This document shows positions 6,149-43,695 of a stretch of 49,206 nucleotides of DNA, piece after piece. Position numbers and translations under genes: made by a program. Within the stretch, counting starts at the first letter, position 1. Every line of letters starts with the position of its first letter. Below the pieces are notes generated by a model. That model ran no database searches, was not told the DNA's origin, and saw nothing but the letters and a program-made list of their open reading frames with translations. Origin of the DNA: Deltaproteobacteria bacterium (GTDB taxonomy: Bacteria; Desulfobacterota; DSM-4660; Desulfatiglandales; Desulfatiglandaceae); contig JAFDGR010000026.1 in assembly GCA_019309145.1 (NCBI GenBank), positions 1 through 49,206 of the forward strand. Reading direction: 5' to 3'.

Positions 6149-6205
6149 TCGTTTTCCTGCGCTTCAATTTCTTGATCTGAAAATTGAAGTTATGAGGGAT
6201 GGGCG

Positions 6206-6466: not shown

Positions 6467-6469
6467 GAA

Positions 6470-7074: not shown

Positions 7075-7121
7075 ATTCATTTATACTTTGCATATCTTTT
7101 ATGGCGTAAAAATAATACATC

Positions 7122-11938: not shown

Positions 11939-12284
11939 TGCCAGCGCCGGCCAGCGCAGCCGGAGCCAGGGCCATATACAGAAATGCTTTTCCGTGGCGG
12001 GGTTTCCAGCCCGACCCCCACAGGTCTTTCATGGTGAGCAAGTAATTATGAGAGAACGTCCTGAAGACATAGAAGGATTTCATTGCGTGGGCTGTCAGAT
12101 GTTGTCCTCTCGCCAAGGCCGGGTAGTTTGCCTTGCCATAGGTGGCATGAGCCTGGTCTGAAATGCGTTTTGCCAGGCTAAGCATGTCGTCATATCCAGC
12201 GGGCTTATGGTTTTTCATGCCCATATACGCCCCGAGGATGGTTGCAACCCTGTTAAGCTGTTCCGTCACGCCGAACCCGATCAT
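11922..12284 (-). CDS. Middle portion of the giant polyvalent protein in a shifted frame
   Basis: Coding sense extends upstream of the ATG (..GKAWDKVIDYS-MIGFGVTEQLNR..), overlapping the end of the giant ORF. Confidence 0.5.
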   Translation of the reverse strand: MIGFGVTEQLNRVATILGAYMGMKNHKPAGYDDMLSLAKRISDQAHATYGKANYPALARGQHLTAHAMKSFYVFRTFSHNYLLTMKDLWGSGWKPRHGKAFLYMALAPAALAGAGIVTGF

Positions 12285-21200: not shown

Positions 21201-24070
21201 AAGAAATCGGCTTTATTCCCGATGTACTCCCTCACCTTTCCGTTTGTCTGAGCATCAAGGGACCAGGCCGAAGTTATGGCTATTACTAACCCCCCCGGCT
21301 TGACTGCACTAAGAGACCGGCCAAAGAAATAATTATGGATGCTCCATTTTGAATAGTCGGGGTGGGCCTTATCAGTGATGGGTACATTCCCAAAGGGAAA
21401 GTTGCTGATTACAAGATCCACAGAATTATCGAGCACTCGCTTTGACCGCTCAAAAGGAGCTACCTCAATCTGAGCTTGAGGATAGAGCTTTTGAAATATC
21501 CTGCCGGAGACAGAATCTTTCTCAATGCCATGGAGAATGGATTTGGAGGCTATGTCTTGAGGCATTAAGCCGAAGAAATGACCGACACCCCCGGCTGGCT
21601 CCAGGATCGTGCCGCCCTTGAAGCCAAGTCTGCGGGCAATGTCCCACGTCGCTGTTATAACCGGTCTTGAGGTGTAATGGGCGTTTGTAGTTGAGGCGCG
21701 GGCGCTTTTCCATTCCTCCGCTGTAAGGGCGCCCCCGAGATTAGGATGGAGCTTGTTGCCGTACTTGGCCTTCCACTGGTGGAATCTCTTTAAGGTATCC
21801 GGGGTGAAATACCTGTCTTCGGGTATGTCGCTATGCTTCTCAATGTAGTCGGTGAAGTCCCGGTTGAATACTTTTTGAGCGAAGGCCCCCCACCCAACAT
21901 ATTGAGCGAGGACCTTCTTTTCTTCTCTGGTGGGATTTCTGTTTTCGCTTTCGAGCTTTTTGAGGAGGGCAATGGCCTTTATGTTGGCCTTAATCTTGGA
22001 TTCTGCGCCAGCAGGGGCTAAAACGTCCCCTGCTTCGATAACATGGTTTCGATCTTCCTCCGGTACTTCCTGTTCTCCGGCGGGTCTTCCGCCCAGGCCC
22101 TCACCTTCATTTCCTGCCTGTCGCTCAGGGGCTCCCTCGCCTCCACGTCCCTCGGCGCCACGAGGTTCGACACCAGTTCCTCTATCTGATCCCGTGCCAG
22201 GTTCCCTTGGGCCTCCAGCTTGTCCCAATACTCCTCCGCCTGTTCCACCTTCTTCCTGATCTCGTCGTACAGACCTTGCCGGTCGTCCTGAAACTTCTTC
22301 CAGGTCACCTCCGGTCTGCACATCAGAAGGAACTCCACCCTCTGATTCCACCACGGCCATTCTGTCGGGTCTGCCAGGCTCAACTTCTCCATTGTTTATC
22401 TCCTCTCTGACAAACTTCTCAAAGTACGGCCTACCCTTGGGGGATAGGGCCTTTATAGCCAGCTTGACAAATTCGGCCCCGGATTTCCCCGCAGCCACCA
22501 CCTCGTCCCAGGCTTCTTTCAATAAGGGCCGGATCAGTTCCCACTTTCCTGGGTCAACCTCCTTATCAGATATCGCCCCTTCTTCCCCTAAGATCTGGTT
22601 GATCTGCTTGAACTTGTCTAAGGCGTTGGCGATATGTTGGGCAGCCTCTTCGGCTTTCTGCTTAGGCGCAGCCGGGGCCGCTTCAGGGGGAAGCTCAGGT
22701 GGGGCAGCAGGCTCAATCTCTTTCGCTTGGCGGTCCCATTCGGCAAGCAGATCATCAGCACTCATTTCGACTGCTTTTTTGGGCGGCGCCTTTTCTTCTA
22801 TTTTACCACTTTTCTCGGGAGATGTCAAGAACTTCTCGGCATCCTTGAGGGCTCTGTCAATCGCTTCGGCCCGTGTCCATCTTGCCGGGGCGTCTGGGCC
22901 TTTTTGGTGTCTTACCCCGCCCTCGACCTTCTCAAAATAGAAACCCCCGTTGTCTGCCTGAAGGATTTTATAGTCCACATTCCCGGCCCTTGCAGAGCCC
23001 TTGGTGGTAAGCCCTCTTATAAACTTATCACGGAGCGTTTGGGCAGGCTTCGCCTCGGCCTTCTTTTTAACGGACAGCCCCGCCTTGAAAAACCTGTCTG
23101 CTTTTCCTGCGACCACTCCCGCAACATCGTAATAGGCGTCACTCCCTTTTTTGATCTCGCCTATGTCATCAGCCCATCCTATTTCAAATCCTGCGTCTTC
23201 AAGCTGCTTGACCTTACCGCCTGACAAAATTCCTGTGGCCGCAACCCTTGGGTCTTCCCTGGGGGCTTCTGCTTTAGCCTGTGGCGCCTCCTTCTTCTGT
23301 GAAGCTGTATTTATGAGGGCTTCATCAAAGACAACCGCCCCGTCGTCGGTTTCCACTACGGTCCATCCGTTGGGCTCCATCACCTTATCCCAAACCAACT
23401 GGACAAGGGGCATGTCGTCCCATAGCTCTGCAGAATCCACAATACTGTCAGGGTTGGCAGCTTTTACAAGCTCATCAACATTGCTTTCGCCTTCTTCCTC
23501 CAGGGCGCTCTTTAGGGCTGCCTGGAATTTGGGAGACCCCGCATAAACAACCTTTTCCTCTGGAATTGAGTCTACATCCACCGTATGGTGAAATGCCCCG
23601 TAGGTCCCCTCGTCAACCTTCGTCTGGTCTTCCGCAAACATGGCGAAACCCGCATCGGACATAGGGGATTCGGAATTCGTATATCTATGGTAAACCCTTT
23701 TCGTTTCGGGTTTAGGCTCTTCCTTAACGCCAAAATCCTGTTTGTATCCCTCCCATCTCTTTTTCGCCTCGTTCTCCGAGAATCCTGTAAGCACTTTTTC
23801 ATGTAGTGGACGGCCATAACTCTGGTATCCCTTGCTCTTCACCCTGCTATGGGCAAAAATACCCCATTTGTTACCTTTGGCCTGCAATGAGTAGGTGGTA
23901 TTGGTCTTGGGATCGTAAAAAGTGTCTACTATCTCACTGCCGTAGAACGGCTTTGCCGCAACCGGCCTTTGGGCCAGTGCTTTCTCTGACGAAGGGGCCT
24001 CTTCTCCCCCGCTCAACAACGCCGATATTTGGCTGTGGTATTCCTTGGCGGCCTTGAAATCCTGTTTCAT
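12281..24070 (-). CDS. Giant DarB-like polyvalent protein: N6A methylase-like, SF2/SNF2 helicase, PRTase, second methyltransferase, HExxH metallopeptidase-like, ART-like and LPD38-like regions
   Basis: 3929 aa; motifs ILEPAGGVGHFFGL / ISNFPFG, YGVGTGKT, LIDEAHAYK, NGRIIRQGN, YILVDDVVTQGGTF, VNIDIGGGRYD, TRHELFHLAMR, GIDGIRYP...NYVVFDPNAVTI. Confidence 0.85.
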   Translation of the reverse strand: MKQDFKAAKEYHSQISALLSGGEEAPSSEKALAQRPVAAKPFYGSEIVDTFYDPKTNTTYSLQAKGNKWGIFAHSRVKSKGYQSYGRPLHEKVLTGFSENEAKKRWEGYKQDFGVKEEPKPETKRVYHRYTNSESPMSDAGFAMFAEDQTKVDEGTYGAFHHTVDVDSIPEEKVVYAGSPKFQAALKSALEEEGESNVDELVKAANPDSIVDSAELWDDMPLVQLVWDKVMEPNGWTVVETDDGAVVFDEALINTASQKKEAPQAKAEAPREDPRVAATGILSGGKVKQLEDAGFEIGWADDIGEIKKGSDAYYDVAGVVAGKADRFFKAGLSVKKKAEAKPAQTLRDKFIRGLTTKGSARAGNVDYKILQADNGGFYFEKVEGGVRHQKGPDAPARWTRAEAIDRALKDAEKFLTSPEKSGKIEEKAPPKKAVEMSADDLLAEWDRQAKEIEPAAPPELPPEAAPAAPKQKAEEAAQHIANALDKFKQINQILGEEGAISDKEVDPGKWELIRPLLKEAWDEVVAAGKSGAEFVKLAIKALSPKGRPYFEKFVREEINNGEVEPGRPDRMAVVESEGGVPSDVQTGGDLEEVSGRPARSVRRDQEEGGTGGGVLGQAGGPREPGTGSDRGTGVEPRGAEGRGGEGAPERQAGNEGEGLGGRPAGEQEVPEEDRNHVIEAGDVLAPAGAESKIKANIKAIALLKKLESENRNPTREEKKVLAQYVGWGAFAQKVFNRDFTDYIEKHSDIPEDRYFTPDTLKRFHQWKAKYGNKLHPNLGGALTAEEWKSARASTTNAHYTSRPVITATWDIARRLGFKGGTILEPAGGVGHFFGLMPQDIASKSILHGIEKDSVSGRIFQKLYPQAQIEVAPFERSKRVLDNSVDLVISNFPFGNVPITDKAHPDYSKWSIHNYFFGRSLSAVKPGGLVIAITSAWSLDAQTNGKVREYIGNKADFLGAIRLPNTAFKANAGTEVVTDIVILRKKAGGEQGLSNPFRTTEKLIITAEDKQVVKKYEDAREAKKVADRLKATRSMTKKQKDEIKLQKAIAKEELAKARKAYGELYAVNEYFVAHPEMVLGKHSKGGSMWAANTYTVEPTGNLEEQLKKAKDALPENVVNTSAELTAPPQPERWAGEGAKEGTLTIEDGEVLLVKNGRLVAPYYRNSAGKKMVVAGKRLTRLRHYLAVRETARTLIDRMAEPDATNEEIASLQRELNRAYDRFTSKYKHFHSPGNSFIRKTDNDFAIVSSLEIVRKKDLALGLKTTTVKKADIFTKRTIYPFVEPDSAKNLEDAVSQSIIYRGKIDPARIATLLGGMDVKKVVQDIVEGGHGFVDPDTGMVVPAAAYLSGNVKRKLRIAKAAATQNPQYKPNIKALEKVIPADLDIEFINFRLGSTWLPGECVADFLRDVLDLTDATSTGKLTVEQVVTDETSRWHITNVGNTSNAKNTRTWGVPNHFTGAELVEAALNFKRPKAMEQDPDTKKKYENKERSKEARLKSEELNAEFVRWAKSHERWADELAAIYNEEKNGTVLQKRTEPNIDYYPNASHAVKLRSHQKIAVSRGLQESVLLAYGVGTGKTFIYITLSQEMKRIGTARKPMIVVHNSTIDQYRESFATLYPGAKVLIPAADERNSAQRKRLLASIATGDWDAVVIPQSFFDRIANDPQREAAYVEERIAELEAEIERAREEDDSEWTVKDVENLVEKKRQQLDALLDRAKDEELYFEQLGVDALLIDEAHAYKRSEFITKLSRLKGIDTGSAQRSTSLLLKAGWIREKTGGKNIILATGTPISNTMAELWTMTRYVRPDLLEEYGVSRFDDFAGAFGEVVEGIEETASGFKEVERFAKYVNGPELLTMFFSGADVRLTKDAGLNLPKVEGGKPTPVVTEKSPELSAVINQIVQRWRAWENLGGREKARQRHVPLQLYGLAKKAAIDLRLIDPDYYKFDPNSKVGRAVEKIAEVWEETKERRSTQIVFLDLFHESGDTKGFNLHRDIRDRLIAKGIPANEIVLFGEISEKKQEQVKDKIRSGEIRVVIGSTGKLGIGVDIARKLIAAHHLNVPDRPMDIEQRNGRIIRQGNENSSVRIFHYMTKDTLDSVMFDRLGKKQRFADQVLSGDIEGREFDDPFSEEQASFAEFAAAASGEAGKLLFEKNDLIAKEHKYRVAESAHIRQISEARRDIKRIPDEIRQKEARRREQEDLRGILNKAFPEGTPETITYKGSDLPKKEFLKRIQEDIESEKARLKKRFEGMTFGKYREILEKKGLSSWAEFAHSIFAKAGPIDIEITLQLATNHDGEAKPSAKIEFIRTNAEQSAPPIIRLPRFAFNLNGKFLHWEAMQNIPARFTKALNTAVGRVSATIERLNADIEDARKYLKELEHIVQQKFKYSKELNETRRRIREIDAELIKLNREAQDREAEALEAAVAPGITKLSIANVRPWPKDFPHVLQHTTAAKLKRHPDYDAAKAGDTEAAARVAMDLTNKEKAKELGRKYPNAVLAPVIAMEEGGINKLPLLLAKAISKVSGLPVDLELYQANFVGRTKKTGLQRLLTIVKFGGKVKAKEYILVDDVVTQGGTFAEQRHYIENDGGKVVATTSFGTAQYGAKLAVTPESIAAIERRFGRAETEALLREYDIAGALEALTQGQAQQILKFSSLNNLRNRIVEEGYEAVFPPGGQAPSGLRINRPAISQAISSAWTSLNQIPGIFKRIRWAPGTVNIDIGGGRYDKATNFLEERGVTNLVYDPYNRSPEFNEDVVKKLRDRLADTATVANVLNVIAERPARLDVIRQTAKGLKPDGVAYFQIHEGNGSGKGKATTKGWQNNRKAAEYLDEVKTRFADVSRSGNVITAKNPIKTPDMNAWETPEGEVFFNYGNFIAKVREANPEGLEWLRKQILSWLKGPLPKEALERLSAHLVADIAIKGRSVAKTKADWRKLNVGSNAPIMGATTITPLQAIIELSYNFDDPTIERTTRHELFHLAMRWLLPEQDYQLILKAFDGNEEAAAEAFADFAIANNKKGLSAAVIKLFRRLRLALKRVRAGLQGKGFRVAEDVFRDLLGGKYAMLPEGERIARHVGGSPDIRYQVAAWQGGPREVVGGYSNEFLGTGEGVHAFGWGHYFSELEDIAKFYATALAPKPKVLLDGEPYNNGTYSAILPDLFRDATSKDDVVRSLYSDYGKLKDIDKDYADKILDIAKKVKNGRITVAGKPRHFHKVTIHKGKDPSEYTWLDWDKKVPDNIIQKVLSQAKTEFGEKLTIDEFDLRGLDGHSLYYHLTQEIADAYNRKAGVDITRPSYKEASLFLLRAGIDGIRYPAGSLSGMETDAKNYVVFDPNAVTIEEHTAFSLASNDEAERRARAYLDAFIAKHGGDDDLRADVEEEADRFDEAHRKDALDAWDTIRNLKAVKGAYKEGRPDTTAWERLLSVPSHYFHRVPALGRVFEDALRKADNQHMILDQITMSPDGDYYTTILDELRKQDPAEYKKLKKYLKHCDQNQIGYRISQDEESGAWRLHDKKNPELILGTYKTEQAAVDAMIDREVADYRESGRTEQAAEALRAARRITTNGFNILIQSMRTLIEDFQQANMELPSDYIYVQGEAVQVNLKTALAQMGDMRGYYMPRIRKPGRYTVRVKKKGANPILRRFDLKTTAEIWAARKKSQGYTVVSIEKSRDMPEDVFEMAKEVIAQQAIINEALERMDRSHKKIDDKELKKITEGAKVLFAKGLVEQVANIIKGRGVRMHMIRRVEATGTDVWEGYEEDPTTALAKYAQGLAGGESKKIMARDMLLHFTGTDISWGKFKQDNPEAEYKDYLKFVKDRGVDAVDQKNAFRDGKSYMAEMLRNDEAVDRLIGTIKGVAVLKYLGGRVSAPLVNLTALATSVPACMNGFGDIPLHKTLKYLGQAMDAYWEWRFEDKTKLDPEIVKVLRQARHGTRLSTTQ

Positions 24071-27696: not shown

Positions 27697-29064
27697 TTAT
27701 TGTATGTAAGGTTTCATCTTACTGGTCGAACCGTCCCCGTAGAAGTCCACCGGGACAATAACCCACTCTCTTGTCAGGGTATCTCCCGTGCCGAGATTTT
27801 TCAGGTCTTCAAAAGAGAACGAAGGGTTGCCGCCATCCCATTTTTTCAGTAGGCCCACCCTTTCCCCCTCCTCGTATTCCAGGAAATCAGAACTCTTACA
27901 CCAGATAGTCTCCGTCTTGACCCTGACCTTGTATCTCGCCCCGACTTCGCCACGATAGGCCGCAGCGTAGTCGCCTTCTTCAACGATTTCGATTATTACA
28001 CCGCTCGTATAGTAGGCCGTCTCCACCCAATGCCCGGCAAACAACTTGGGAGCGTTGACATTGTGCCACCAGGCATGAAGCAGCCATGGCTTTGCAAGGA
28101 GGGCTACAAATTCCCCGGGGACTATCAACGTAGAGTCCTCCGGTATCCAATATCTTAACCATGTTTGGATCTTTATTTGCGGATCTTCATCGCCAAAGCC
28201 TGCAGAAGGATACTCCACATTGTCGGATACAATCTTGTAAGCCTTGTCAACCAATAATTCCCCAGGGATATCAAGCGACGAAGACCCCGTAGCATACGGG
28301 GGGACCAGTGCGTCTCCAACTTCAGGCGGTAAGGCCGGATGGACGCTGCCCGCCACAGGCGACTTTACAGCGGATTCCGTAGTAATGGTGATCTTCCACA
28401 TCACGCCAAACGGGCCGCACGGGAAAGCGATATAACCTATACCCCCAGAAAAACCGTCAACCCCTGGATTGACGGCGCTGCCAGTGTCTGAGCGGTAAAG
28501 CTCATATCGGGCTTCTTTCACAGTAGGCTCTTTTGGCCCCGGCTCCGTTTTCGTCAGTGGCCTTACACTGGGTGTGTCGCCTGCGCCTGCACTCGGAAGT
28601 ACGTCATCTATTGGCTGGTCAAGGGGGACTATTCCAGAATATACCCCCAGGAAATCGGAGAGGCTATCTAAACCGTCGTCCACGCTAACGTCACCAAACT
28701 TGAGAGTATTTCCGGCCTTGGCCAAATACCAAACATCGTATGCTATCGGGGCGCTCACTTTCAGTCTTACCGGATCATCGGTGCCCATATTCATTTCAGC
28801 GCCAAACCCGACGGCGCCTTTCCCGTCACCCATTCCGGCTATATCTATCACGGTTTCAGCGGGCGCAAACATGAGGCGGTCGGCCCTTATATGGGCGCCG
28901 ATTACATCTAAAAGGGCCTGCTTTCTGGCGACAGTCATGCCAACAATATCAGTGCCCATTGCCGGTTTATCAGCAAGCCTCTTCAGTAGGTCCTCATACT
29001 CATTGAATGAGCCAAGAGCCTCTCTCAATTCTTCTTCTGATACGGCAAGAAATTGATACGCCAT
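27697..29064 (-). CDS. Hypothetical virion-region protein
   Basis: 455 aa; contiguous with the structural operon. Confidence 0.55.
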   Translation of the reverse strand: MAYQFLAVSEEELREALGSFNEYEDLLKRLADKPAMGTDIVGMTVARKQALLDVIGAHIRADRLMFAPAETVIDIAGMGDGKGAVGFGAEMNMGTDDPVRLKVSAPIAYDVWYLAKAGNTLKFGDVSVDDGLDSLSDFLGVYSGIVPLDQPIDDVLPSAGAGDTPSVRPLTKTEPGPKEPTVKEARYELYRSDTGSAVNPGVDGFSGGIGYIAFPCGPFGVMWKITITTESAVKSPVAGSVHPALPPEVGDALVPPYATGSSSLDIPGELLVDKAYKIVSDNVEYPSAGFGDEDPQIKIQTWLRYWIPEDSTLIVPGEFVALLAKPWLLHAWWHNVNAPKLFAGHWVETAYYTSGVIIEIVEEGDYAAAYRGEVGARYKVRVKTETIWCKSSDFLEYEEGERVGLLKKWDGGNPSFSFEDLKNLGTGDTLTREWVIVPVDFYGDGSTSKMKPYIQ

Positions 29065-29068: not shown

Positions 29069-31768
29069 TTAGCTCACTGAATGAAGCAGCCTCGTGTCTA
29101 TCTGCGCCGTTGCAAGCGTTTGCGCCGCCAGGATTGCAGCAGTAGCGTACAACTCGGCTGCCACGGCCCTCGCTTCGTGGATGTTCGCCTCAAGGTCCGC
29201 CAAGTCCATTTTATGGAGATACTCAACAGTCGCCAGATTAATTTTCTCTGAATCCTCGGTTTTAAGAAGCTGTTCAATGCCGTCTTCAACCATAGTCCTC
29301 GCCTTGCTGAGGGATATCTGACTGTCAACCTCGGCCTGTTCTTGCTCTTGCCGTGTCTGAGCCAAACGTATGTCGTCCTGAGTCGCATCCTGAACCATCC
29401 ATTTCTCTCTATGCAGGAGCCTCATGTCTTTAGACAGCCTTCTGTATTCAGCATGTAAATTAGATATCTCATTTCGCAGTAACGATTTCTCTAATTCCGT
29501 CTCCTCTTTCTCCAAATCAACGAGGGATAGTTGGAGGATGTCCACCCCCAATTTTGCAATGGCGGCCTTATATTCCTGTTCCTTGATTTCAATCTCCTTG
29601 ATGGCGAGTACGGCTTCTCTCGTTTCCATCCCGACCTTTTTGGTCTTCCCTCTAAGTTCTTTAATGTCAGCATCTATCTGGGCCTTTTGCAGTTTGATTT
29701 CTTCCACCTTCCGCTTGGCTTCATCAATATCAAGCCTGATCTTTTCACGGTCCAACTTGGTCTGACTTTTATCAAGGTCGATCTCTGCGATCTTCAAGTC
29801 GATCTCGTCAATATCAGCCCTGATAGATTCTTGAGTCAACTTCTCCTCAACATCCTTGAGTTTCTCGTTGGCAAGCCTAACAGCTTCAACTTTTATGTCT
29901 GCCTCAAGCTGCTTGTTCTTTGCGGTGGCTTGACTGGTCCTAAGCGCCTCCTCCCTCACCTCGATTGCCGCCTCTGTCGCCCGTGCCTGGAGTTTTTGGA
30001 TTTCAGCTTTCTCAAGCTCAATTTGAGTCCTAAGATTCGCTTCCTTCACTCTCTCCCTGGCCTGGTCAACCTCTATTTTTCCTCTGTCAAGCTGGGCCTG
30101 GCTTATAGCCAGGTCGATTTCCGAGGCGTCAGTTTTGAGTTTTGCAGTCTGAAGGTCAATTTTAGCCGCATCTATATCGACTTGCTGGATTTGAGCTTCG
30201 GTCTCTATGGTCCTGGTTTCGGTGTTGACCGTTTCCAGTTCTGTTTTTCGACCGTCCAGCCGGATATCGGCCTCCTCGACATCGGTCTCAATAATTTGAA
30301 GCTCAACCTTGCTTGTATCTGCGTCAATTCTCTTTCCTTCAAGCTCTATCTTCTTCTTTTTTACCTCCGTCTGACCTATTTTAAGATCCACGCCCGCAGC
30401 TTCGATCTTGAGCTTTTCCCCGTCGTACTCAGCTTCTTTTTTGCGTATACCCTCCTCTGTAATGTCAACATCTATTTTGGCTATATCAGATTGAACTTTC
30501 TCCCTATCAATGACCGCAGTTGCCTTGGCAACCTCAGCTTCCCTGGTTCTTGTGCCGACCTCAATCGTGTCAACCCTGATTTTATCTCCATCGAGTCTGG
30601 CCTGCATCTTGCGGACGCCCTCTTGAGCAATATCAACATCGGTTTTTTTAATGTCGGCCCCAATCCTGAGCTTATCAATTTCGGCCTTCTTCTCCCGTAG
30701 GCCCTCCTCTTCGATTTGAATGTCAACCCTCCGAGTGTCGGCCCTTATCTTCTCCTTTTCTATCTCCGCCATTTCTACTGCGGTCTCAGCTTCCGTTTTT
30801 CGGGCCAGCACCTCCACCCTGTCAGCTATCAACTTTTGGCCGTCAAGCTCAGCCTGCGTTTTGGCAAGCTCCGCCTCGGAGACTTTTGCGCCTTCCATGA
30901 CGGTATCGGCCTCCACTCTCCGCCCATCCAATTCCACCTTTGCCGCCTGCACTTCGGCATCAACAACCTGAGCCGCAACGTTTCCGGTGTCCGCCAATAT
31001 ACGTTCGCCCTTCAACTGTGTTTCGGCTAAGAGGACCCCCTCACCCTCAATATCAACCTGTGTTTGGGCCTTCTGATTCTCAAGATTCGCACTATCAACG
31101 GCCACTTCCGCAATTCTGGTCTCTGTTTCTGTCTTCCTCAAGGCGCTCTTGGAGAGATCAATCCCGGCTTGCACGATGTCCAACTGGATGCCAAGGCCCC
31201 TGATTGTAGCGTTGACCGCATCAAGCTCGGCCCGTGCCTGCCTCAACTCCTGTTCGGATATATCAACCTCCACCATTGAGTAATTCACGTCTTCCAACTC
31301 TGTTTGGATTTCGAGCTCTCTAATCTTATGTTCAGCCCGCTCTCTTGCCATTTGAAGCTCAACGGTCTTAGTCTCCAGGGCCGCTCTGTCGGCAGCGAGG
31401 GCGTCCATTTTGGCCTGGTACTCCTCCTCCATAGCGCCTATCTTTTTCCGCCTGGTTCCCATCTCAGCATCGTGTATCTGGCCTTCAATCTGGTCGAGAT
31501 ACCTCTTGGCCGCCATTTCAAGGACCAATCGTTGCCTTTTTGCGTCCAACTCAGCCATGTTGTTGTTGTAAACATCAAGCAGGATCGTCAGTTCGAAATC
31601 CTCTATCAAGGATAGGTAGCCCGTTCCAAGAAGATAGTACGAGGCATAGATTCCAAACATTGTTTGCCGTTCCACAGCATGCGCCGCTGAAAATGAGGCA
31701 TTATAGGTGAATGAAGGCCATATTGAACGCTCTCTTGCCGTAGCCCGGTCAAAAATTTCCTGTGACAT
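29069..31768 (-). CDS. Giant coiled-coil protein, 28-residue repeats (19 in-register copies)
   Basis: 899 aa; repeats LDGDKIRVDTIEVGTRTREAEVAKATAV / IDREKVQSDIAKIDVDITEEGIRKKEAE / YDGEKLKIEAAGVDLKIGQTEVKKKKIE ... Confidence 0.8.
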   Translation of the reverse strand: MSQEIFDRATARERSIWPSFTYNASFSAAHAVERQTMFGIYASYYLLGTGYLSLIEDFELTILLDVYNNNMAELDAKRQRLVLEMAAKRYLDQIEGQIHDAEMGTRRKKIGAMEEEYQAKMDALAADRAALETKTVELQMARERAEHKIRELEIQTELEDVNYSMVEVDISEQELRQARAELDAVNATIRGLGIQLDIVQAGIDLSKSALRKTETETRIAEVAVDSANLENQKAQTQVDIEGEGVLLAETQLKGERILADTGNVAAQVVDAEVQAAKVELDGRRVEADTVMEGAKVSEAELAKTQAELDGQKLIADRVEVLARKTEAETAVEMAEIEKEKIRADTRRVDIQIEEEGLREKKAEIDKLRIGADIKKTDVDIAQEGVRKMQARLDGDKIRVDTIEVGTRTREAEVAKATAVIDREKVQSDIAKIDVDITEEGIRKKEAEYDGEKLKIEAAGVDLKIGQTEVKKKKIELEGKRIDADTSKVELQIIETDVEEADIRLDGRKTELETVNTETRTIETEAQIQQVDIDAAKIDLQTAKLKTDASEIDLAISQAQLDRGKIEVDQARERVKEANLRTQIELEKAEIQKLQARATEAAIEVREEALRTSQATAKNKQLEADIKVEAVRLANEKLKDVEEKLTQESIRADIDEIDLKIAEIDLDKSQTKLDREKIRLDIDEAKRKVEEIKLQKAQIDADIKELRGKTKKVGMETREAVLAIKEIEIKEQEYKAAIAKLGVDILQLSLVDLEKEETELEKSLLRNEISNLHAEYRRLSKDMRLLHREKWMVQDATQDDIRLAQTRQEQEQAEVDSQISLSKARTMVEDGIEQLLKTEDSEKINLATVEYLHKMDLADLEANIHEARAVAAELYATAAILAAQTLATAQIDTRLLHSVS
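29672..31267 (-). repeat. 19 x 84-nt coding repeats (28 aa)
   Basis: Hand-segmented, no register slip from VDISEQEL.. to LDREKIRLD.. Confidence 0.75.
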
Positions 31769-31777
31769 GCTTCACCC

Positions 31778-34534
31778 CTATGACAAAACGTGAGTAAGGT
31801 TTGAAATCAATTTTGCGTTTGCCGCAGCCGCAGCCGTTCCCTTCTTTTCGTTTACCCTCGCAATCGCAATTCTAATCAGTGAGCGGAGATGGGCATAGGT
31901 TATAGTCAACTGTTTTTCGTAGGTCCCTTCAAGGTCGATTCGCTGCACTTCCTGCCTGGTAGCAATCTCGGACGAAATCCGTTCTGTGCGTCTTGACAAG
32001 TCTGCGTTAAGGCTGGCCTCCTTCTCCGACAGAAGCAGGCCCGCATTGATTAAGCGCTGCGTCAACAGGGCAATTTCATTTTGAAGGTTAGTCTGGCGCC
32101 TGACAAATTCGGCTTCTTTAACGTCAAACTCTGCGTCCTTCAGGTCCGATTTGTAGTCCTGAATGTCAGTCAAGAGATCAGCCCTGGTTTCTTTTAGCTC
32201 CATTATGGCCCGCTTAACGCCCATGATCTCATTCTTGACCGACATCCATCGCCGCAACTCCTCGACATACTCCTGCATTTTACCGGCTTTTTCCGTCAAG
32301 TGCGGGAGTATCCGGGTCTCTTTCGCCTGTATCACCTCGTCCTTTTTCTCAATGAGTTCGTCAATAGCTCCCAGGTAGATATCCAATTCGGGCAATAATT
32401 CCATCCGCTTGTTAAGAAGTTCCTGTTGGGCGGAAGATACAACTTTCATCTCGTCAATGTATTGAGAAAGAAGATCCATGTTTAAGGTCTTCTCTGTCAG
32501 TAATTCCTGCTTGGCCATCGTCAACCGTGGTATCTGATGTATGTAGTCCGCCTTAACGTCAATCGTCTCGTATTTTGAGTCGATGAAGGCGGTTTTTGCC
32601 GCATTCACAAGATCAATCGCCGCCAAGAGGGCCGTGAGCAGCCCGAACTCTTCCTCCTGAACGCCTATGGTCAGCTCCTTTTGGGCCGACAGGTCCGCCA
32701 GGTGCCCTATGTACTCCAAGACCGGAGCTATCTCCCCGCTCTTTATTGATGCAAGTTCGGCTTCTGTACCTGCGACTATTTCAATCAGTTTCATTAAGGC
32801 GTATGCGTATGCGATGTTTTTGCTCTTTTCCGTAACAAGCGTTTCCCTTTTCGTGATAACTGTTTGCGATTCGGTAAGTTGCTCCTGCATTTTCGGGATA
32901 AGGTCTTCTTTTGCACTTGCAAGATTCCTCCTGGCCTCTGAAAGACTCAGCATGGCCGTTATTTGGTCATCTATTAGCGGGATATTGTCCAATTTCTGCC
33001 CAGCAAGGGTTTCCCGTCGCCCATACAGCTCAGCCAGACGGTCAAGCATTGCTTCCATTTTCGCTATGTTGATATTGTCAGCGTCAAGTAGGCCCCGCTC
33101 TGCATCCTGTAAACCCGACAGCTTATCAAGGTATGCGGCCAATAGGTTTACATTCGCCTCTTTGACTGCGGCTAAGTTTCTCCGGGCCTGATTAAGTTCC
33201 TCCAGTTTCCCCATGTATTCCCGGAGCAGGTCCGGTATTTTCAGCTTTTCGATTGCAACCTGGTCTCTCATAGCAGCCAGATCCTGGAGGGCTGCCATGT
33301 AGTCGGACATGAGAGGGATGTTGTCTGAGATAGCCGCCTGGGTCTCCTCTTTAGCCTCAGCCAGCCCTATCAATCTATTCGCATGTTCGCTTAATAGTTC
33401 CAGCTTGTTAAGTTCAGCGGCAATAACATCCTCTTTTGCAAGGGCGAGGTCCCCGAGGCGATCCGTATACGCCTTGACAAGCTCAAGAGTACCGTGCTTC
33501 GCATCGGCGGCGGCCTGTCTTGCTTCAGCGAGATCGCCAAGGGCCTCAATATAATCCTCCATCTTCCCTGTATTCAGGCCCTTCGCTGTAACTACATCCC
33601 GTCTTGCCTCCGCCAAGTCTTCTATGACTGATATATAAGCTCCAATCTTCTCAAAGTTCTCCTGATGTTTACCGGAAATCTCCTGCCTTTTCTGACTAAG
33701 GGTTTTCAATGCCTCAATATACGGCCCCATCAGCGTTACATTGGCGTCCGAGGCGGCGACAACAAGGCGTTTGGCATCCACAAGCTGAGACCGTAAAGCA
33801 GCCAATTCAGCCTTCTGGTCTGCAAGGCTGGAGATCTCTGAGGCGAGCGTTTCCTGGACCGAAATTAGTTCCCGCTCCGCCTCTGTCAGCTTTTCCTTTT
33901 CAGTTATCAACGCCCGTTGCCGGTCAGCATTCGCCGTTTCCGCTGCAATCACATCTTGCTGGCTCGCAATCACCGCCTGGATAACCGGGATGACATCGAG
34001 CTTCCTCTGCGCCGTTCGCAATTTGGCATTGAGCAGGGCGGCCTGGGCCGGGAATACTATCGAATCAACACCGGCAAGCTGCTGGCGGATGGCCTCCGCT
34101 TGCACTTCAATGTCAGTCTTCGCAGACAACACCAACAGGTCTTTGAGGCTTGTTGTAATTTCGAGGCAGGCCAATTCTTCCTTATCCAAGGCCCTCAGCC
34201 GTTTGTTGTCAGCGAGTTCCCCCTGGAGGTCCGTCAGTAATTGGGTCTTTTCAGTCTCCCACTGGATTTCAGCCGTCCTGTACGCCTGGTCATAATCGTG
34301 CGCCGATTGCTTGATACCTAAGTCAACGGCTTCCTTCGTGATCTGATGGTTTAACTCTGATAGCTTGAATTTAGCCGCCTCTTCAAGATCGGTTATGGTG
34401 TCATTCAAGAACCCGGGGCGGGAGCAGAAACCCCTTGAGGCAACAGCAGTCTCAACCTTTCGGTGGTTTTCAAGGTATTCTTTGAGAACCGGATGCTTTC
34501 CTTTCCACCATCGGTAATCTTCAAACGTCGCCAT
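31778..34534 (-). CDS. Giant coiled-coil protein, 28-residue repeats (18 in-register copies)
   Basis: SD gaggtga before ATG 34534 (track start at 34543 is GTG); repeats IEDLAEARRDVVTAKGLNTGKMEDYIEA / LGDLAEARQAAADAKHGTLELVKAYTDR ... Confidence 0.8.
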   Translation of the reverse strand: MATFEDYRWWKGKHPVLKEYLENHRKVETAVASRGFCSRPGFLNDTITDLEEAAKFKLSELNHQITKEAVDLGIKQSAHDYDQAYRTAEIQWETEKTQLLTDLQGELADNKRLRALDKEELACLEITTSLKDLLVLSAKTDIEVQAEAIRQQLAGVDSIVFPAQAALLNAKLRTAQRKLDVIPVIQAVIASQQDVIAAETANADRQRALITEKEKLTEAERELISVQETLASEISSLADQKAELAALRSQLVDAKRLVVAASDANVTLMGPYIEALKTLSQKRQEISGKHQENFEKIGAYISVIEDLAEARRDVVTAKGLNTGKMEDYIEALGDLAEARQAAADAKHGTLELVKAYTDRLGDLALAKEDVIAAELNKLELLSEHANRLIGLAEAKEETQAAISDNIPLMSDYMAALQDLAAMRDQVAIEKLKIPDLLREYMGKLEELNQARRNLAAVKEANVNLLAAYLDKLSGLQDAERGLLDADNINIAKMEAMLDRLAELYGRRETLAGQKLDNIPLIDDQITAMLSLSEARRNLASAKEDLIPKMQEQLTESQTVITKRETLVTEKSKNIAYAYALMKLIEIVAGTEAELASIKSGEIAPVLEYIGHLADLSAQKELTIGVQEEEFGLLTALLAAIDLVNAAKTAFIDSKYETIDVKADYIHQIPRLTMAKQELLTEKTLNMDLLSQYIDEMKVVSSAQQELLNKRMELLPELDIYLGAIDELIEKKDEVIQAKETRILPHLTEKAGKMQEYVEELRRWMSVKNEIMGVKRAIMELKETRADLLTDIQDYKSDLKDAEFDVKEAEFVRRQTNLQNEIALLTQRLINAGLLLSEKEASLNADLSRRTERISSEIATRQEVQRIDLEGTYEKQLTITYAHLRSLIRIAIARVNEKKGTAAAAANAKLISNLTHVLS
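32282..33793 (-). repeat. 18 x 84-nt coding repeats (28 aa)
   Basis: Hand-segmented, no register slip from RSQLVDAK.. to IDELIEKK.. Confidence 0.75.
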
Positions 34535-34539: not shown

Positions 34540-37500
34540 TCACCTCGCTAAAATCACCGGAACAAGGTTGATGAAGCTCACACTTTCAAAGTCCTGGAAT
34601 TTAAGGACCCATTTTCGGCCCACCATGTCCCTGGTCATATTCGCCTTGGAATCAACGATCGAATATATTTTACTCCCGGAGTCTGTCTCTACCTTGAGCC
34701 CGGGGGTTGTGCCCCCAATCAGACCGAAGTAGGCCTTTCTGAATCGCTTACGCCGGTCTGTCCCGAAATATGTTGACGGCAAAACGATCCCCGGGACGAA
34801 GGCCGCACCGTTATCCGTGTCCCCTGATAACTTATAGATGCCGTCCGGCTTGCATCCGAAGGCCTCATTATTATAGACAGCGTAAGAGTTGAAATTAAAT
34901 CCGCTGTAAACAGAAGCGTGGAAAGCGTTTGTGTTCAGGACCCAACATTCCCACAAGTCGTCTCCGAACTGAACCATAATGTTGAGGTTCAGTCTGTCAA
35001 CAATGGATGATGTTGCAATCTGGTTTAGGGCCAGCGAGGCCGCAAATTCCAGTACGTCCGACAACTCACTTTCTACATGGAATTCCTGCAGGACCTCCTC
35101 AGTAATTTCAATGGAATCCGTGAGGATATTAAGGCACAACGCCACCAGAATAAGGGAGTCAGCCAGGCCGAGGCTTTCAATGGCCACCCCGTCCCATCCA
35201 AACCCTGCCACGTCAGCGACATTGACAGCATCCTGGTTTAATTGAAAATAGTTTGCCAGGACACTCACGGCCCCGGCCACCGCCACGGTTTCGGTCAACG
35301 TTGGATTGTAATCCACATTTGAGGCCAACAGCCCTGAGAGACCAAGTTCCTCCACTGCAACAGATATCATTTGATGCAGATAAGAAGTGGTGTCCGTGGC
35401 CTCTATGCTTGACGTGGCGGTCTCGTTAAAAATCTCTTGGATTATCGCTTGACCAACAAACGCCCGAAGGTCGGATTGGACAGCCCTTGTCCCGGTCCAG
35501 TTCGTAATCAGGGCCTCAAGTAGCTTGACGACATCCCTTGCGAATAATCCCAGGGCAGGAGAAAGCGTGTCTGCAAGGCCAATGGCCTCAGCGGTAAGCA
35601 CTGCCCATTCAGTACCAACCTGCGGTCTGAATGTTATAGGAGATTGGACCGCTTCCGTCCCAGTCCAGTTAACGCTTTCGCTTGCCGCCAGGTTGAACAG
35701 GTCTTCAATGACAAGGAGAAGTTTCTCAACTTCTGTATCGGCAAAATCTACTGTCTCAGAAACGGCTATCAACCAGCCAACAAGGAGATTTGAGGATAAC
35801 CTGATTATAGATAATGCAGTCTCAGTCCCCTCCCAATTAGCCTGTGTCTCAGCCCCGATGATTAACAGTTCCTCCAGCTCGCTAAGGAAAGCCTGACCAA
35901 GGGTGTCATGGAGACTTATTGTTTCCAGGACTGCTTTCAGCCAACCAACAATGCCTGAGTCTACAAGCCGAATATCACCCTGAAGGGCCTCCGTACCTTG
36001 CCAGTTCTCAAGAATAGAGACGGTCAGGCCGATGGCATCCTGGACAATCAATGTCAGGGTGCCACCCAACCCGTCTGCCATATCTATTGAGTCGAAAACA
36101 TCCTTACCCCAGGCCGGTATGACCTGCCCCGTCCATTCCGCCGTGCTTTCAACCGCTTCCTTTCCATGCCATACCGTTGCATCGGAATCAGCGAGGGTGA
36201 GGACCTCCATAATCTCCCAGGCGGCCACATCCTCTATGATTTCAGTAAATGTTATGTCGTCAGTGATATCTACGGCGATGCCCCATTTTGGAGCGAGTTC
36301 ATACAGGAAAAGCCCGTCTTCAACATTGGCCGTCTTGGCAATTTCCGCTTGAAACGAGTCGCTTAGGATGAAAAGGGACTGAAAGCTATCCTCAATTTCT
36401 CTGCCAATGGAAAATTCATCGTCTTGGCTGAGATTTTCTTCAATGGATAGATCGTAGTACAATCCAAATGCATCGGAGATTTGTATATCTTCGCTAATTT
36501 CAATTTGGGACAGGTCACGTTGAACTGTAATTGAAGCATTAAGCGAGGTGCTTTCGGTAAGATCCAGGTATGACGAATCTAACTGAAAAGCGTCGCCAAG
36601 CGCGATAGTCTCAGATATATCGCACTCAACAACGCCACTATCCCCCACCCAAGCGTCGCCAAGCGCGATAGTCTCAGATATATCGCACTCAACAACGCCA
36701 CTATCCCCCACCCAAGCGTCGCCAAGCGCGATAGCCTCAGATATATCGCACTCGATATTGGAGCTTTCTTCCGTTCCGAACGCAATCAGGTCGTCCCAAA
36801 GGCTGGTGTATGTGGCTTTTATCCAGGCGGCAGAGCGGGCTGTGGAGGAGATGCGGACTTCATCGAGGACGCCATTGAATACAAGGTTTGAATTTGTCTC
36901 ATCGTCCTGAGCACCAAGCCATAATGGCGCTGTTGAACTATAAAGGGAAGAAATAACGGAACTGGTTTGCTCCCCATCTTGAGATCCATCCAAATAAATT
37001 GTGGCCGATGTTGAGGGGATGTAGGTTGCAGCAGCATAATGTAAAGCGTTATCTGATTTCGCAGTATCAGCTTCAAACGAAACATAATGACCTACATCTG
37101 TTGTTCCATCATCAGATAATGTTATTTTAAGTTTTTCATTGGAAGTAAAAACTAACCGGTAACTTTTTAGCCCTCCCTCTCCTTCATATTTGGCTATTAT
37201 CCCCTCATCGGCAGAAGGGGTGGCTACGCTTTTGAAAACTGCCTCAAGCGTCAACTGTCCCGTGACATCCAGGCTGGTATCATCAGCAGCCTCTATGAGA
37301 TCATCGCTTCCATCAAGTTCTATCCCCCTCCCCACCTTGGCATCAACCAGGTCGTCGGATGTCATGGAGCCGGTGGAAGTGCCGTGGTTGGCATTACTCG
37401 TACTGTCCTTTATGGCGTCCGTTCCACCGGAAGGATCTTGAGCAAGATGGTAGACAGCCTTGAAGTTGCTATCCCACACATTCTGTGCAGCCGTGTCGCC

Positions 37501-38937
37501 GGTGTCACCCACATAGGTGGTGTTGTCCGCTTGACTTGAATCATAATACAGGTAGAGATCGGTATCAGCGGAAGAACTTACAGACGGGACTTTGACCCAC
37601 AGCCAAGCTTCTTCGTTGGCATCGTCCCATTTTTCTACTTCAACATAGCATTGTGTAGTGCCGTTAGACGTGGTAACAGCTATTTTTTTACGGTTGGCGT
37701 CAGAACCAAGTTCATCAAATACGCAGGAGACGTCAGTACTCCCCGTGCCAGAGGACGTTGAGAGATGAATGAGGACGGGGAAATCGGACAGGTCTGAATC
37801 AACATTCTCGTTGCTGATAGTCAGCTTGATTCGTTTGCTCCAGTCAGAAAGCCAGCCCTGGAAGCTTTCCTCGGTTCCGAACGTAATCAGCGAATCCCAA
37901 AGGCTGTGATATGTGGCTTTTATCCAGGCAGCAGACCGGGCCGTGGAGGATATGCGGACTTCATCGAGGACGCCTTTTCCATGCCTGCCCGAAATAGTTG
38001 GATTAAATGATAGCCCTAAATTATTAGAATTTGTATTTATTAGATAGGTGGCTAAGCCAGATAAAGTTTCCGATCCAATATCTACACCATCTCGATAACT
38101 AATAAGTTTTTTGCTGGATGAATCATAAGTGTGAGCCGAATAATACCAAGTATCTGAAGAGGGGTTAAATTCTCCTGCACCACCCCTCCAAACTCCATCA
38201 ATATAAACATTAAACCAGTTTTTGATAGCAGAATCACTTCTGGCCCCTATCAAGTAACACTGTTCCTTACACAACCAATCCGCCCAATTATCATTCGTGC
38301 CAGTATCTTTGAAAATTGTCTCAAGCGTTAAAGCTGACGAAATGTCCAGCGACGAAGAATCATCAATTTCGACTCCATCGTCAGATCCATCAAAATCCAA
38401 CCCCTTATCTACCTTTGCATCGACCAAATCCCCCGATGTCATGGAGCCGGTGGAAGTGCCGTGGTTGGCATTACTCGTACTGTCCTTTATGGCGTCCGTT
38501 CCGCCGGAGGGGTCCTGGGAAAGATGATAGACAGCTTCGAAATTACTATCCCACACATCTTGGGCGGCTACATCCCCGGTATCACCAACATATGTAGTGT
38601 TATCCGCATGGTCAGAGTCGTAGTAAAGATACAATTCTGTATCCGCACCACTTGCCACAGAAGGTACTTTAACATGGAGCCATGCTTCCTCATTAGCGTC
38701 GTCCCATTTCTCAATTTCAACGTAACATTGCGTAGTGCCGTCTGAAGTAGTGACCGCAATCTTTTTGCGGTTGGAATCAGAGCCAAGCTCGTCGAATACA
38801 CAGGAGACGTCGTCGCTTTCTATGCCGGAGGATGCGGAGAGGTGTACGAGGACGGGGAAATTGCTAAGGGCGCTATCAACTTTCGTGTGGTCGATAGTGA
38901 TTTTGATTCGTTTTCCCCAACCGGAAAGCCAGCCCAT
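34540..38937 (-). CDS. Tail fibre/adhesin-like protein: two DUF2341 + LamG-like modules, 21-aa repeats, 56-aa repeats
   Basis: 1465 aa; GWLSGWGKRIKITIDHTKVDSALSNFPVLVHLS repeated as GWLSDWSKRIKLTISNENVDSDLSDFPVLIHLS; ALTLETIFK/LTLEAVFK LamG-like regions. Confidence 0.8.
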   Translation of the reverse strand: MGWLSGWGKRIKITIDHTKVDSALSNFPVLVHLSASSGIESDDVSCVFDELGSDSNRKKIAVTTSDGTTQCYVEIEKWDDANEEAWLHVKVPSVASGADTELYLYYDSDHADNTTYVGDTGDVAAQDVWDSNFEAVYHLSQDPSGGTDAIKDSTSNANHGTSTGSMTSGDLVDAKVDKGLDFDGSDDGVEIDDSSSLDISSALTLETIFKDTGTNDNWADWLCKEQCYLIGARSDSAIKNWFNVYIDGVWRGGAGEFNPSSDTWYYSAHTYDSSSKKLISYRDGVDIGSETLSGLATYLINTNSNNLGLSFNPTISGRHGKGVLDEVRISSTARSAAWIKATYHSLWDSLITFGTEESFQGWLSDWSKRIKLTISNENVDSDLSDFPVLIHLSTSSGTGSTDVSCVFDELGSDANRKKIAVTTSNGTTQCYVEVEKWDDANEEAWLWVKVPSVSSSADTDLYLYYDSSQADNTTYVGDTGDTAAQNVWDSNFKAVYHLAQDPSGGTDAIKDSTSNANHGTSTGSMTSDDLVDAKVGRGIELDGSDDLIEAADDTSLDVTGQLTLEAVFKSVATPSADEGIIAKYEGEGGLKSYRLVFTSNEKLKITLSDDGTTDVGHYVSFEADTAKSDNALHYAAATYIPSTSATIYLDGSQDGEQTSSVISSLYSSTAPLWLGAQDDETNSNLVFNGVLDEVRISSTARSAAWIKATYTSLWDDLIAFGTEESSNIECDISEAIALGDAWVGDSGVVECDISETIALGDAWVGDSGVVECDISETIALGDAFQLDSSYLDLTESTSLNASITVQRDLSQIEISEDIQISDAFGLYYDLSIEENLSQDDEFSIGREIEDSFQSLFILSDSFQAEIAKTANVEDGLFLYELAPKWGIAVDITDDITFTEIIEDVAAWEIMEVLTLADSDATVWHGKEAVESTAEWTGQVIPAWGKDVFDSIDMADGLGGTLTLIVQDAIGLTVSILENWQGTEALQGDIRLVDSGIVGWLKAVLETISLHDTLGQAFLSELEELLIIGAETQANWEGTETALSIIRLSSNLLVGWLIAVSETVDFADTEVEKLLLVIEDLFNLAASESVNWTGTEAVQSPITFRPQVGTEWAVLTAEAIGLADTLSPALGLFARDVVKLLEALITNWTGTRAVQSDLRAFVGQAIIQEIFNETATSSIEATDTTSYLHQMISVAVEELGLSGLLASNVDYNPTLTETVAVAGAVSVLANYFQLNQDAVNVADVAGFGWDGVAIESLGLADSLILVALCLNILTDSIEITEEVLQEFHVESELSDVLEFAASLALNQIATSSIVDRLNLNIMVQFGDDLWECWVLNTNAFHASVYSGFNFNSYAVYNNEAFGCKPDGIYKLSGDTDNGAAFVPGIVLPSTYFGTDRRKRFRKAYFGLIGGTTPGLKVETDSGSKIYSIVDSKANMTRDMVGRKWVLKFQDFESVSFINLVPVILAR
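35503..36174 (-). repeat. Four 168-nt (56-aa) coding repeats
   Basis: VWHGKEAV / NWQGTEAL / NWEGTETA / NWTGTEAV start exactly 168 nt apart (36174, 36006, 35838, 35670); a fifth NWTGTRAV starts at 35502 and then decays. Confidence 0.85.
36588..36753. repeat. 2.6 copies of a 63-bp tandem repeat
   Basis: Unit starts 36588, 36651, 36714; encodes ECDISE(T/A)IALGDAWVGDSGVV. Confidence 0.9.
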
Positions 38938-39571: not shown

Positions 39572-39799
39572 CTACACCTTTTCCTCGTCAAGTTTATGGT
39601 CTCCACACCAATCACCACTGAACACTACAGGGTATCCGTTCATGGTGGGAGCGTGGCGACGGCAACGGCCAATAGGACCCCTGCCGTCAGTTTCGGGTGT
39701 GGCGTGCTGCACGGCAGACGAAACCTTCTCAACAAACCACATGCAGGACGCACACCTCATGCCTTCGCCTCTATGTTTCCAGGGATCGGGATTTGCCAT
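39572..39799 (-). CDS. Small Cys-rich phage protein
   Basis: RCASCMWF...GRCRRHAPT...DWCGDH. Confidence 0.6.
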   Translation of the reverse strand: MANPDPWKHRGEGMRCASCMWFVEKVSSAVQHATPETDGRGPIGRCRRHAPTMNGYPVVFSGDWCGDHKLDEEKV

Positions 39800-40365
39800 T
39801 ATGCGTCAGCCCCCGTAATCGTTACCGTTACCTTTAAGACGTCTCCGCTCTCCACGGATTTGGAGGAAGAGAACTTGGAAGCGCAGTACATAACCCCGCC
39901 TCCTGCCGTGTCGCCTTTGGTGCCTGCAGTGGTGCCTCCACCTACCAAGGCCCCGCCATAGATCGTCTTTGAGGCGTTCATGGTGAAGGTGGCCTTGTTG
40001 GCTGAATTGGTAATAGACTTAGCGGAAGCGGCCGCCTCAACGTATTCCGGCCTGTCGGACTCATTGTAGGCGGAGCTTTCTGTAAATACTGGGGTGGCAT
40101 AGGTTGTTGAAGCCTCCGGGACGGTATCGCTCTCAAATATCAGGACGTACCAGGTTGTTATTTGGGTTGCTCCGTGAAACATTACGTCCAGGAGATTGTT
40201 AATGCCCTCGTCCGTACATATGTTGTGATCCCTGGTCCGGCTTAACAACCGGCCTTTTTGCCAGTGCTCCACATCCCAGATGCTTTCAGCCAAGAAACGA
40301 GGCTGATAGATAAGAGGTTTTTCAATCTCGGCTGCTATATGCACTCCAAAATGCTGTCTTTCCAT
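39799..40365 (-). CDS. Tail-region protein, paralog of 41654-42271
   Basis: ggag RBS before ATG 40365; shared GINNLLDVMFHG...TWYVLIFES and CASKFSSSKSV. Confidence 0.65.
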   Translation of the reverse strand: MERQHFGVHIAAEIEKPLIYQPRFLAESIWDVEHWQKGRLLSRTRDHNICTDEGINNLLDVMFHGATQITTWYVLIFESDTVPEASTTYATPVFTESSAYNESDRPEYVEAAASAKSITNSANKATFTMNASKTIYGGALVGGGTTAGTKGDTAGGGVMYCASKFSSSKSVESGDVLKVTVTITGADA

Positions 40366-40471
40366 TTCTGTTTCTCCTTGCTCCGGCCAATAAAAAAGAC
40401 CGGTGTAGGGACTGCCATACCAGCCCTGTTTTTTGTTGACCAAAGAAGGGATCAGGTTCTTTGGGATTTTG

Positions 40472-41653: not shown

Positions 41654-42271
41654 TTAACTGGTTGTTGCGCTGATGGTGTAGGTCACATAGAGGACGTCAT
41701 CGTCAATGACCGCCCTGGACGAACTGAACTTCTTGGCGCACATCAAATAGCCGGTTGTAGCGGTCTTGGCAGCTTCCGTGCTGAGAAAAGCCCCGTAGAT
41801 CGTGATGCTTGCGGCCATGGTGAATTCCGCCTTCCCTGCCACGCTGTTTGTTATGCTTGCAGTTTCGGTGTCCGCCGTGGTGTAGGCCGGTTTGTTGGTA
41901 GCCGGATTGTCATAGTCTGCGTCCTGGCATTCCCCGTATGTCCCAGCCGCACCAAGACAGGTGGCAGCCGTGTTCCCGACAGAGGGTGTAATGTTGTTTT
42001 TGTAGATCCCCACATACCAGATTTCCGATGCGGGCTTACTGATATCGTGAAAGATGATATTCAGCAGCCGGGCCATACCTTCAGTAGTGAAGGTGTTTCT
42101 TGTTTCGGGGTATCCTCCGCTGATAAGTTCGCCGTTACGGTATTGATCGCACTGCCATATCCCCTCAAAGCCAAGATGGCTTTCAATGGGGTATTTGGCC
42201 GCATATCTCAGTTCAGGGTTGTCTCTCAGCGATTCAATCATCTCTCTGCTTGGTATTGCTATTCTACCCAT
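41654..42271 (-). CDS. Tail-region protein, paralog of 39799-40365
   Basis: GMARLLNIIFHD...IWYVGIYKN, CAKKFSSSRAV. Confidence 0.65.
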   Translation of the reverse strand: MGRIAIPSREMIESLRDNPELRYAAKYPIESHLGFEGIWQCDQYRNGELISGGYPETRNTFTTEGMARLLNIIFHDISKPASEIWYVGIYKNNITPSVGNTAATCLGAAGTYGECQDADYDNPATNKPAYTTADTETASITNSVAGKAEFTMAASITIYGAFLSTEAAKTATTGYLMCAKKFSSSRAVIDDDVLYVTYTISATTS

Positions 42272-42435: not shown

Positions 42436-43695
42436 TCATATTACCGCCCCGTTTCGGATAACCTCCACGGTGGCATCATCACTCATTCCAAGGCCTTCTT
42501 GCTCAGGGCCTTTCTTGAATGACGTTAGATACTGGAATTGACCGTTATACCTGCGATAGAGGGCCGCCCCTCTTTCCCCAGGCGTAAACCTCACATTCGG
42601 CTGGCTTAGGGCAAAGAGCCTGCCCACAGGGTTTCCGATTACAATGCCCTCTTGAGACACCCACACCGGAACAGATACGTGGCGCTTCTCCGTAGGGGAA
42701 ATAGTGTCGCCCAGCTCTACCAGGTCGTTACAATATGCAAGCGTCCCCGGAATCGCTCCGCAACCAACATCGCTTTGCTGCATTTCCTCTGGAGTAGTGC
42801 CCATGAGAAAAAAGGTCCGTGTCTTACATCCCACAAAGAGGCCGGTTTTCACCCTGGCAATCAAGGTGATCTGATCCGAAAACTCAAAGTAGGCTGTTCC
42901 AATTTTCCACCAATCGAGGCGGAACGGCTCTGAACAATAGAGACGCCTCCCACTTGCACCCCACATGCGCCCAAAAGCGTAGGTGATGAACTCCATAAAT
43001 GGGGGCGGTTGACACCACAACGAGGGGAGGGGTTCAACAGACGGCACATTAACAATCGTGTTTACAGGGCCGACGTTGTAGAGGATGTTCCCGTTCGGGT
43101 CCGTACACCATACAATGTCTGTTGGAGAACGGTTTGCAATGGCAATAGCTTTGCCGTCAGAAGTGATTTCAATCCTGGATATCGGTCCGTTCCCGCTGAT
43201 AACACTCCCACGGGAAGCGGTAAGACAAACCTGGTAAGTCCCTTTAGCCAACCCCCCGGATGTGGCCTCAGACACCATGGGACCGGGTGGCAGGGAGATT
43301 CCCCACTGGCTGAGTATATTGGTGGTCGGATCAAAAACCCCTGTAAACGCCTTATTCGCAATATAAACTATGCCGTCAACCTCAGCGTAATATGTTGGTG
43401 TCTCAAACGAGCCCACACTACCTATCGTGATGGCCGTATCCCCTTCAATACGCTTAAGGGTCGTCCCATCAACAACAAGGTGGCATAAATTGCAGGCCCA
43501 CTCCGAATGCCCGTTTGTAAGCGAGACGGTTTTGGTTACACCGTCCCTTTTGATTATTTCACCGTCCGCTGTAACATTGGCATTAAGGATAATCCGTGGC
43601 CTTACAGCACGGTTTTTACCCGCAATCTCACGTGAAATATCGAGGTTGTTCATGCCTGCAAAGGCCGGGATAGTTATTTCGCTCTTACCAGGCAT
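42436..43695 (-). CDS. Tail nozzle/stabilisation-like protein
   Basis: 419 aa beta-propeller-like; follows the adaptor gene. Confidence 0.55.
   Translation of the reverse strand: MPGKSEITIPAFAGMNNLDISREIAGKNRAVRPRIILNANVTADGEIIKRDGVTKTVSLTNGHSEWACNLCHLVVDGTTLKRIEGDTAITIGSVGSFETPTYYAEVDGIVYIANKAFTGVFDPTTNILSQWGISLPPGPMVSEATSGGLAKGTYQVCLTASRGSVISGNGPISRIEITSDGKAIAIANRSPTDIVWCTDPNGNILYNVGPVNTIVNVPSVEPLPSLWCQPPPFMEFITYAFGRMWGASGRRLYCSEPFRLDWWKIGTAYFEFSDQITLIARVKTGLFVGCKTRTFFLMGTTPEEMQQSDVGCGAIPGTLAYCNDLVELGDTISPTEKRHVSVPVWVSQEGIVIGNPVGRLFALSQPNVRFTPGERGAALYRRYNGQFQYLTSFKKGPEQEGLGMSDDATVEVIRNGAVI

Follow-up and report, generated by a model that had tools for sequence, protein, structure and literature searches.

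Matched 28-residue repeat arrays in two adjacent genes of a short-tailed phage

What would lead two neighboring genes in a phage structural block each to carry a long, regular run of 28-residue repeats, and do their products belong to one structure or to two? The question is raised by a contig of 49,206 nucleotides, analyzed here at its full length (JAFDGR010000026.1; hereinafter the window), in which gene A (29069–31768, minus strand; an ORF of 899 aa) and gene B (31778–34534, minus strand; 918 aa from the ATG at 34534, or 921 aa from an alternative GTG start at 34543) lie side by side. A sequence-only reading of the window had described 28-residue arrays in both genes and assigned them to a phage tail module. 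Both ORFs were recovered at these positions and the period was confirmed, and we used the gene neighborhood, relatives and profile-profile comparisons of A and B as a gateway to the structure that they might form.

A structural block of a short-tailed phage

The block is transcribed from the minus strand, beginning with a P22-type portal (PF16510), a major head protein (phrog_9953), an SU10-type adaptor (43695–44411; PF24175) and a nozzle or head closure Hc3-like protein (42436–43695; phrog_8040; PDB 26fb_K and, weakly, 8jov_A). These are followed by a gp80-like protein (41654–42271; phrog_8123), a 391-aa protein, a GP4 fibre I gp80-like protein (39799–40443; PF23140), a 204-aa protein, a 1465-aa protein (34540–38937), B and A, and then by proteins of 455 aa (27697–29064), 278 aa, 925 aa and 3929 aa. 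The P22-type portal, SU10-type adaptor, nozzle and GP4-fibre-I-like genes identify the phage as a podovirus, and no tail tube, sheath or other long-tail gene was found in the window's structural block. The proposed tail module is accordingly a phage structural block, but one of podovirus type (portal, adaptor, nozzle) rather than that of a long tail. The phage is a relative of Methanosarcina virus MetMV, and a distant one of the Pseudomonas phages KPP25 and F116.

In having gp80-like genes upstream of A and B in the same block, the window resembles the Ralstonia podophage GP4, whose fibre I consists of gp80 dimers linked by an elongated rope protein. No sequence link was found between this rope protein and A or B, and a literature search for the GP4 and KPP25 structures returned nothing usable. 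The two gp80-like genes of the window are diverged copies of one fibre protein type (phrog_8123). The 1465-aa product is a LamG/DUF2341 adhesin-like protein with a C-terminus homologous to KPP25 gp06 (PDB 26gp_Q), and is a likely partner. It contains two tandem LamG plus DUF2341 units and is about three times as long as its MetMV homologue, the conserved portion being the C-terminus. The 3929-aa protein (12281–24070) combines DarB-like antirestriction, helicase (ResIII/SNF2) and methyltransferase-like stretches, and is probably a packaged polyvalent protein that is injected. A tyrosine integrase (PF00589; 4378–5619) suggests a temperate phage.

Two arrays in uninterrupted register

Self-comparison of A and of B yielded peaks at lags of 28, 56 and 84 residues. 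The lag-28 score over the central 500 residues was 1.05 in A and 0.66 in B, against maxima of 0.78 and 0.32, respectively, among 500 heptad-preserving shuffles; hence, the signal exceeds plain heptad repetition, and the four-heptad period suggested earlier is supported in both arrays. The array in A (29588–31015, minus strand) keeps one register over residues 252–727 for 17 units, 2 of which are slightly negative in leave-one-out scoring, while a weak earlier unit starting at residue 196 (position 31183) is an outlier ahead of it; 19 copies had originally been counted. In B, 18 rows stand in register (32273–33784, minus strand). Leave-one-out scoring supports one register over residues 254–729 (921-aa numbering), with 17 units of which 2 are negative, but not the final row (32273–32356), although 18 copies had been counted. 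There is no indel between units in either array, as had been claimed, and the arrays begin at nearly coincident places, residue 252 in A and residue 251 in B (918-aa numbering).

The description of the repeats as exact holds for their spacing but not for their sequence, mean identity between units being only 23% in A and 20% in B. Identity at third codon positions is about 0.28, i.e., saturated, and the maximum DNA identity among units is 0.6. The low identity of the units together with this saturation argues that the arrays are old and that the length match between A and B is long-lasting rather than a product of recent copying. The same high divergence of the units (DNA identity ≤0.6) speaks against an assembly artefact as the source of the arrays, and we rejected it on this ground. 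All 18 rows of B have L or V at position 1, and at fixed positions Tyr is frequent and Pro occasional; the recurrent Pro noted before is real (13 Pro in B versus 1 in A) but does not occur in every unit. Antisense to A lies a 389-aa open frame (29531–30700, plus strand), which is probably a by-product of the regular codon pattern in A.

AF2 models of A and B are 86–91% helical, with helical runs of up to 197 residues that continue unbroken at the repeats; these models have low confidence (pLDDT 55–57), do not give the oligomeric state and are too poor to infer a fold. Foldseek searches with them against the PDB retrieved generic long helices only, all with E >0.001. The hydrophobic periods of B are 7.0 and 3.5, while the strongest in A is 2.34 (7/3), which fits two opposed hydrophobic stripes on a helix and is also present in 5 of 6 relatives of A. 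A β-solenoid for A, considered on account of the 2.33 period, was rejected as the AF2 model and the E/K/A-rich composition indicate helix. The predicted helicity of the arrays is compatible with the long helical rods and appendage role proposed from the sequence, and their estimated span of 75–80 nm agrees with the 75 nm (504 × 0.1485 nm) of a continuous helix. The slip-free four-heptad period recalls the 28-residue zones of myosin rods, by analogy only; unlike those zones, A has two opposed hydrophobic stripes (7/3) and B has recurrent Pro.

Unrelated chains with a common C-terminal motif

The flanks of the arrays comprise an N-terminal region of about 201 aa in A (31166–31768, minus strand), conserved in the MetMV group, a 131-aa N-terminal domain in B (34142–34534, minus strand) with an RGF..PG motif, and a C-terminal motif common to both proteins in their last 19 residues (LLHSVS in A, 29072–29128; LTHVLS in B, 31781–31837; both minus strand). 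The similarity of these tails is real and is kept in relatives. It had been taken to suggest paralogy, which our comparisons do not support: BLASTP of A against B gave no similarity, profile-profile comparison matched the C-terminal 19 columns alone (ITAxLTHLI versus ITTxLxHTI), and the repeat consensuses did not match at any phase. The other suggestion, that of a shared docking motif, is possible.

Relatives of A and B and their matched lengths

Searches of viral contigs with single proteins as queries recovered no relatives of A or B, whereas N-terminal alignments as queries did recover them. The only annotated phage match was MetMV (MK170447), which has the same gene order and in which B (401 aa) and A (386 aa) are hypothetical or unannotated; the other pairs came from IMG/VR, MAGs and genomes of the same phylum. 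In the window, as in this group, adjacent B and A genes are bounded on one side by the gp06-like fibre gene and on the other by the gene for the 455-aa protein, a putative product encoded next after A throughout the MetMV group. Neither Pfam nor PHROGs yielded a family match for A or B, and no homologue of A was found outside the MetMV group.

The B/A lengths are 401/386 in MetMV and 401/386, 402/385, 403/385, 402/385, 424/391 and 405/385 in the other relatives, against 918/899 in the window. Each protein of the window is thus about 515 aa longer than its counterpart in every relative found, while B minus A is 19, as compared to 15–33 in the relatives, which hold this difference despite having diverged to about 20% identity. 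Since the window's A and B retain the conserved N-terminal ~200 aa (37–40% identity with MetMV) and the C-terminal motif, and stand at 918/899 versus about 401/385, we consider them a lengthened variant of the MetMV-group pair. MetMV A and the window's A also have the same 7/3 hydrophobic pattern; unlike the window, the MetMV pair has a period of 14 and no 28-residue array. Across the relatives, the coil period of 14 is clear in A and marginal in B; alignments over all seven are too diverse for pattern scans. Two broken copies among the relatives, one of B and one of A, retain the C-terminal motif in another frame. No other lengthened pair occurred among the sampled genomes of the window's phylum or order; with the long form in one phage only, the length match depends on one lineage. 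The new element is the 28-residue arrays together with the matched lengthening of A and B, and a literature search found no published description of either 28-residue phage repeats or such lengthening.

The N-terminal domain of B and the KPP25/F116 coil family

Profile-profile comparison of the B family with the coil family of the KPP25/F116 type gave a strong match (hhalign, 95%, E 1.7e-8), which persisted with the N-terminal 131 aa of B alone (94%). Controls with reversed or heptad-shuffled B did not exceed 0.7%, and the value for the A family was 1.5%. The RGF..P.G motif forms part of the core common to both families, and by this comparison we assign the N-terminal domain of B as a remote homologue of KPP25 gp04. 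The link appears in profile-profile comparison only: a HMMER search of the PDB with the B profile missed 26la_X, the chain that KPP25 gp04 matches over its full length, and B did not match the curated PHROG profiles phrog_10969 and phrog_36971, for which reason B is regarded as a remote relative of the KPP25/F116 family and not a member.

Like B, members of this family, such as KPP25 gp04 (318 aa), F116p57 and the ctwe8250 protein (619 aa), have an RGFxxPPG-type domain followed by a helical coil and are encoded near a gp06-like gene: the coil gene immediately follows it in ctwe8250 and in Acidovorax phage AP1, and one gene separates the two in KPP25. Unlike B, they have a proline-rich N-terminal segment (B begins at the domain itself), no partner A and no 28-residue array. 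They differ in length from phage to phage, and some show a period of 14 or 42: the coil proteins of Pseudoalteromonas phage Y7 (893 aa; 2590–5271) and Shewanella phage Y11 (901 aa; 5572–8277), at about 900 aa, have a 42-residue period, so that periods of 14, 28 and 42 all occur across the wider family, which also changes length by tandem units. The gp80-like and 1465-aa proteins of the window match chains of the entries that contain gp04 (26la/44nx), and these chains have the lengths of KPP25 gp08 and gp06. As read from these shared PDB entries rather than from their titles, the models that contain KPP25 gp04 also contain proteins of fibre type. Close homologs already characterized as a tail component would have spoken against the earlier reading, and this objection applies by half: homologues exist, and B's remote one occurs in solved virion entries, but none is annotated with a function.

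Possible structures formed by A and B

We favor, with about an even chance of its being right, the reading that A and B supply the two kinds of subunit in a single structure, long, thin and largely α-helical, which this short-tailed phage would carry most probably as a fibre or rod on its tail vertex. The matched lengthening of unrelated chains and the near-equal array starts point to side-by-side packing in one rod; the chains would run parallel, their N-terminal domains together at one end of the rod and their C-terminal motif at the opposite end, such that any length change in one chain would call for a matching change in its partner. Judging by the homology of B and by the gene neighbors, the rod would lie outside the head, at the tail-vertex fibre complex, with the N-terminal domain of B probably docking it to the complex of the 1465-aa adhesin with the gp80-like proteins. 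The shaft would have grown by about 75 nm in this lineage via tandem 28-residue (four-heptad) modules in both genes, a likely use being to hold the adhesin or the host-surface contact farther from the capsid. We propose more tentatively that the non-homologous A and B form a two-component rod, co-assembling in register over their full length and gaining modules in pairs; on that proposal, fibre length might be set by agreement between two genes, an idea to be held just as loosely.

A and B are also highly helical and charged, and their genes stand between that of the fibre protein and that of the giant, probably packaged and injected 3929-aa protein, the same relative place as that of T7-type internal proteins. 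They might be ejection (internal virion) proteins, which would be carried inside the head and, once released, build a conduit or scaffold across the envelope of the host; the long form would then span a thicker envelope or an S-layer. We consider both parts of this account unlikely, if worth keeping in sight: KPP25 gp04, the remote homologue of B, occurs in PDB entries with fibre-I-like and gp06-like proteins; the added 75 nm exceeds the need of a Gram-negative envelope; and A and B showed no profile or sequence match to described internal virion proteins.

Were A and B instead separate structures, such as two homo-oligomeric fibres or whiskers, their equal length would be a coincidence or reflect a common distance constraint. 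The maintenance of B minus A within 15–33 in diverged relatives, and again after the gain of 515 residues, speaks against this, as do the common C-terminal motif and the constant adjacency of the genes. Their lack of homology beyond that motif, their differing coil hydrophobic patterns (7/3 in A versus mainly 7 and 3.5 in B) and the single long example are what one would expect from it; we deem it rather improbable. Long helical repeat proteins within a structural block could also be tape-measure-like rulers of a long tail, tail length in long-tailed phages tracking that of the tape measure; given a podovirus-type portal, adaptor and nozzle, and no tube or sheath gene found in the block, we give this very little credence.

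Under the favored reading of one A/B structure, the matched lengthening amounts to a prediction, made from sequence alone, that two unannotated podovirus proteins contact each other along their entire length, and this prediction offers a concrete and inexpensive way to test how fibres of this kind are put together. The A/B pairs would also represent one putative rod in naturally occurring long and short forms. Through B, uncharacterized MetMV genes become linked to the structurally solved KPP25 complex.

Host assignment

The phage contig is assigned with an anaerobic bacterium, in a MAG of 404 contigs with about 6% contamination, and its place in this bin is putative; a search of the MAG for mcrA gave no match. 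The phylum of this MAG (Thermodesulfobacteriota in NCBI usage) appears to include also the Syntrophaceae MAG with the broken copy of A, since two genomes, with identical contigs and coordinates, turned up in the samples of both groups. The Methanosarcina host of MetMV was published on in silico grounds only (PMC7164591), and this assignment deserves re-examination. Genes like those of MetMV also occur in other genomes of the bacterial phylum to which the window is assigned, and in MAGs that bear the labels Peptococcaceae, Methanoperedens and Syntrophaceae.
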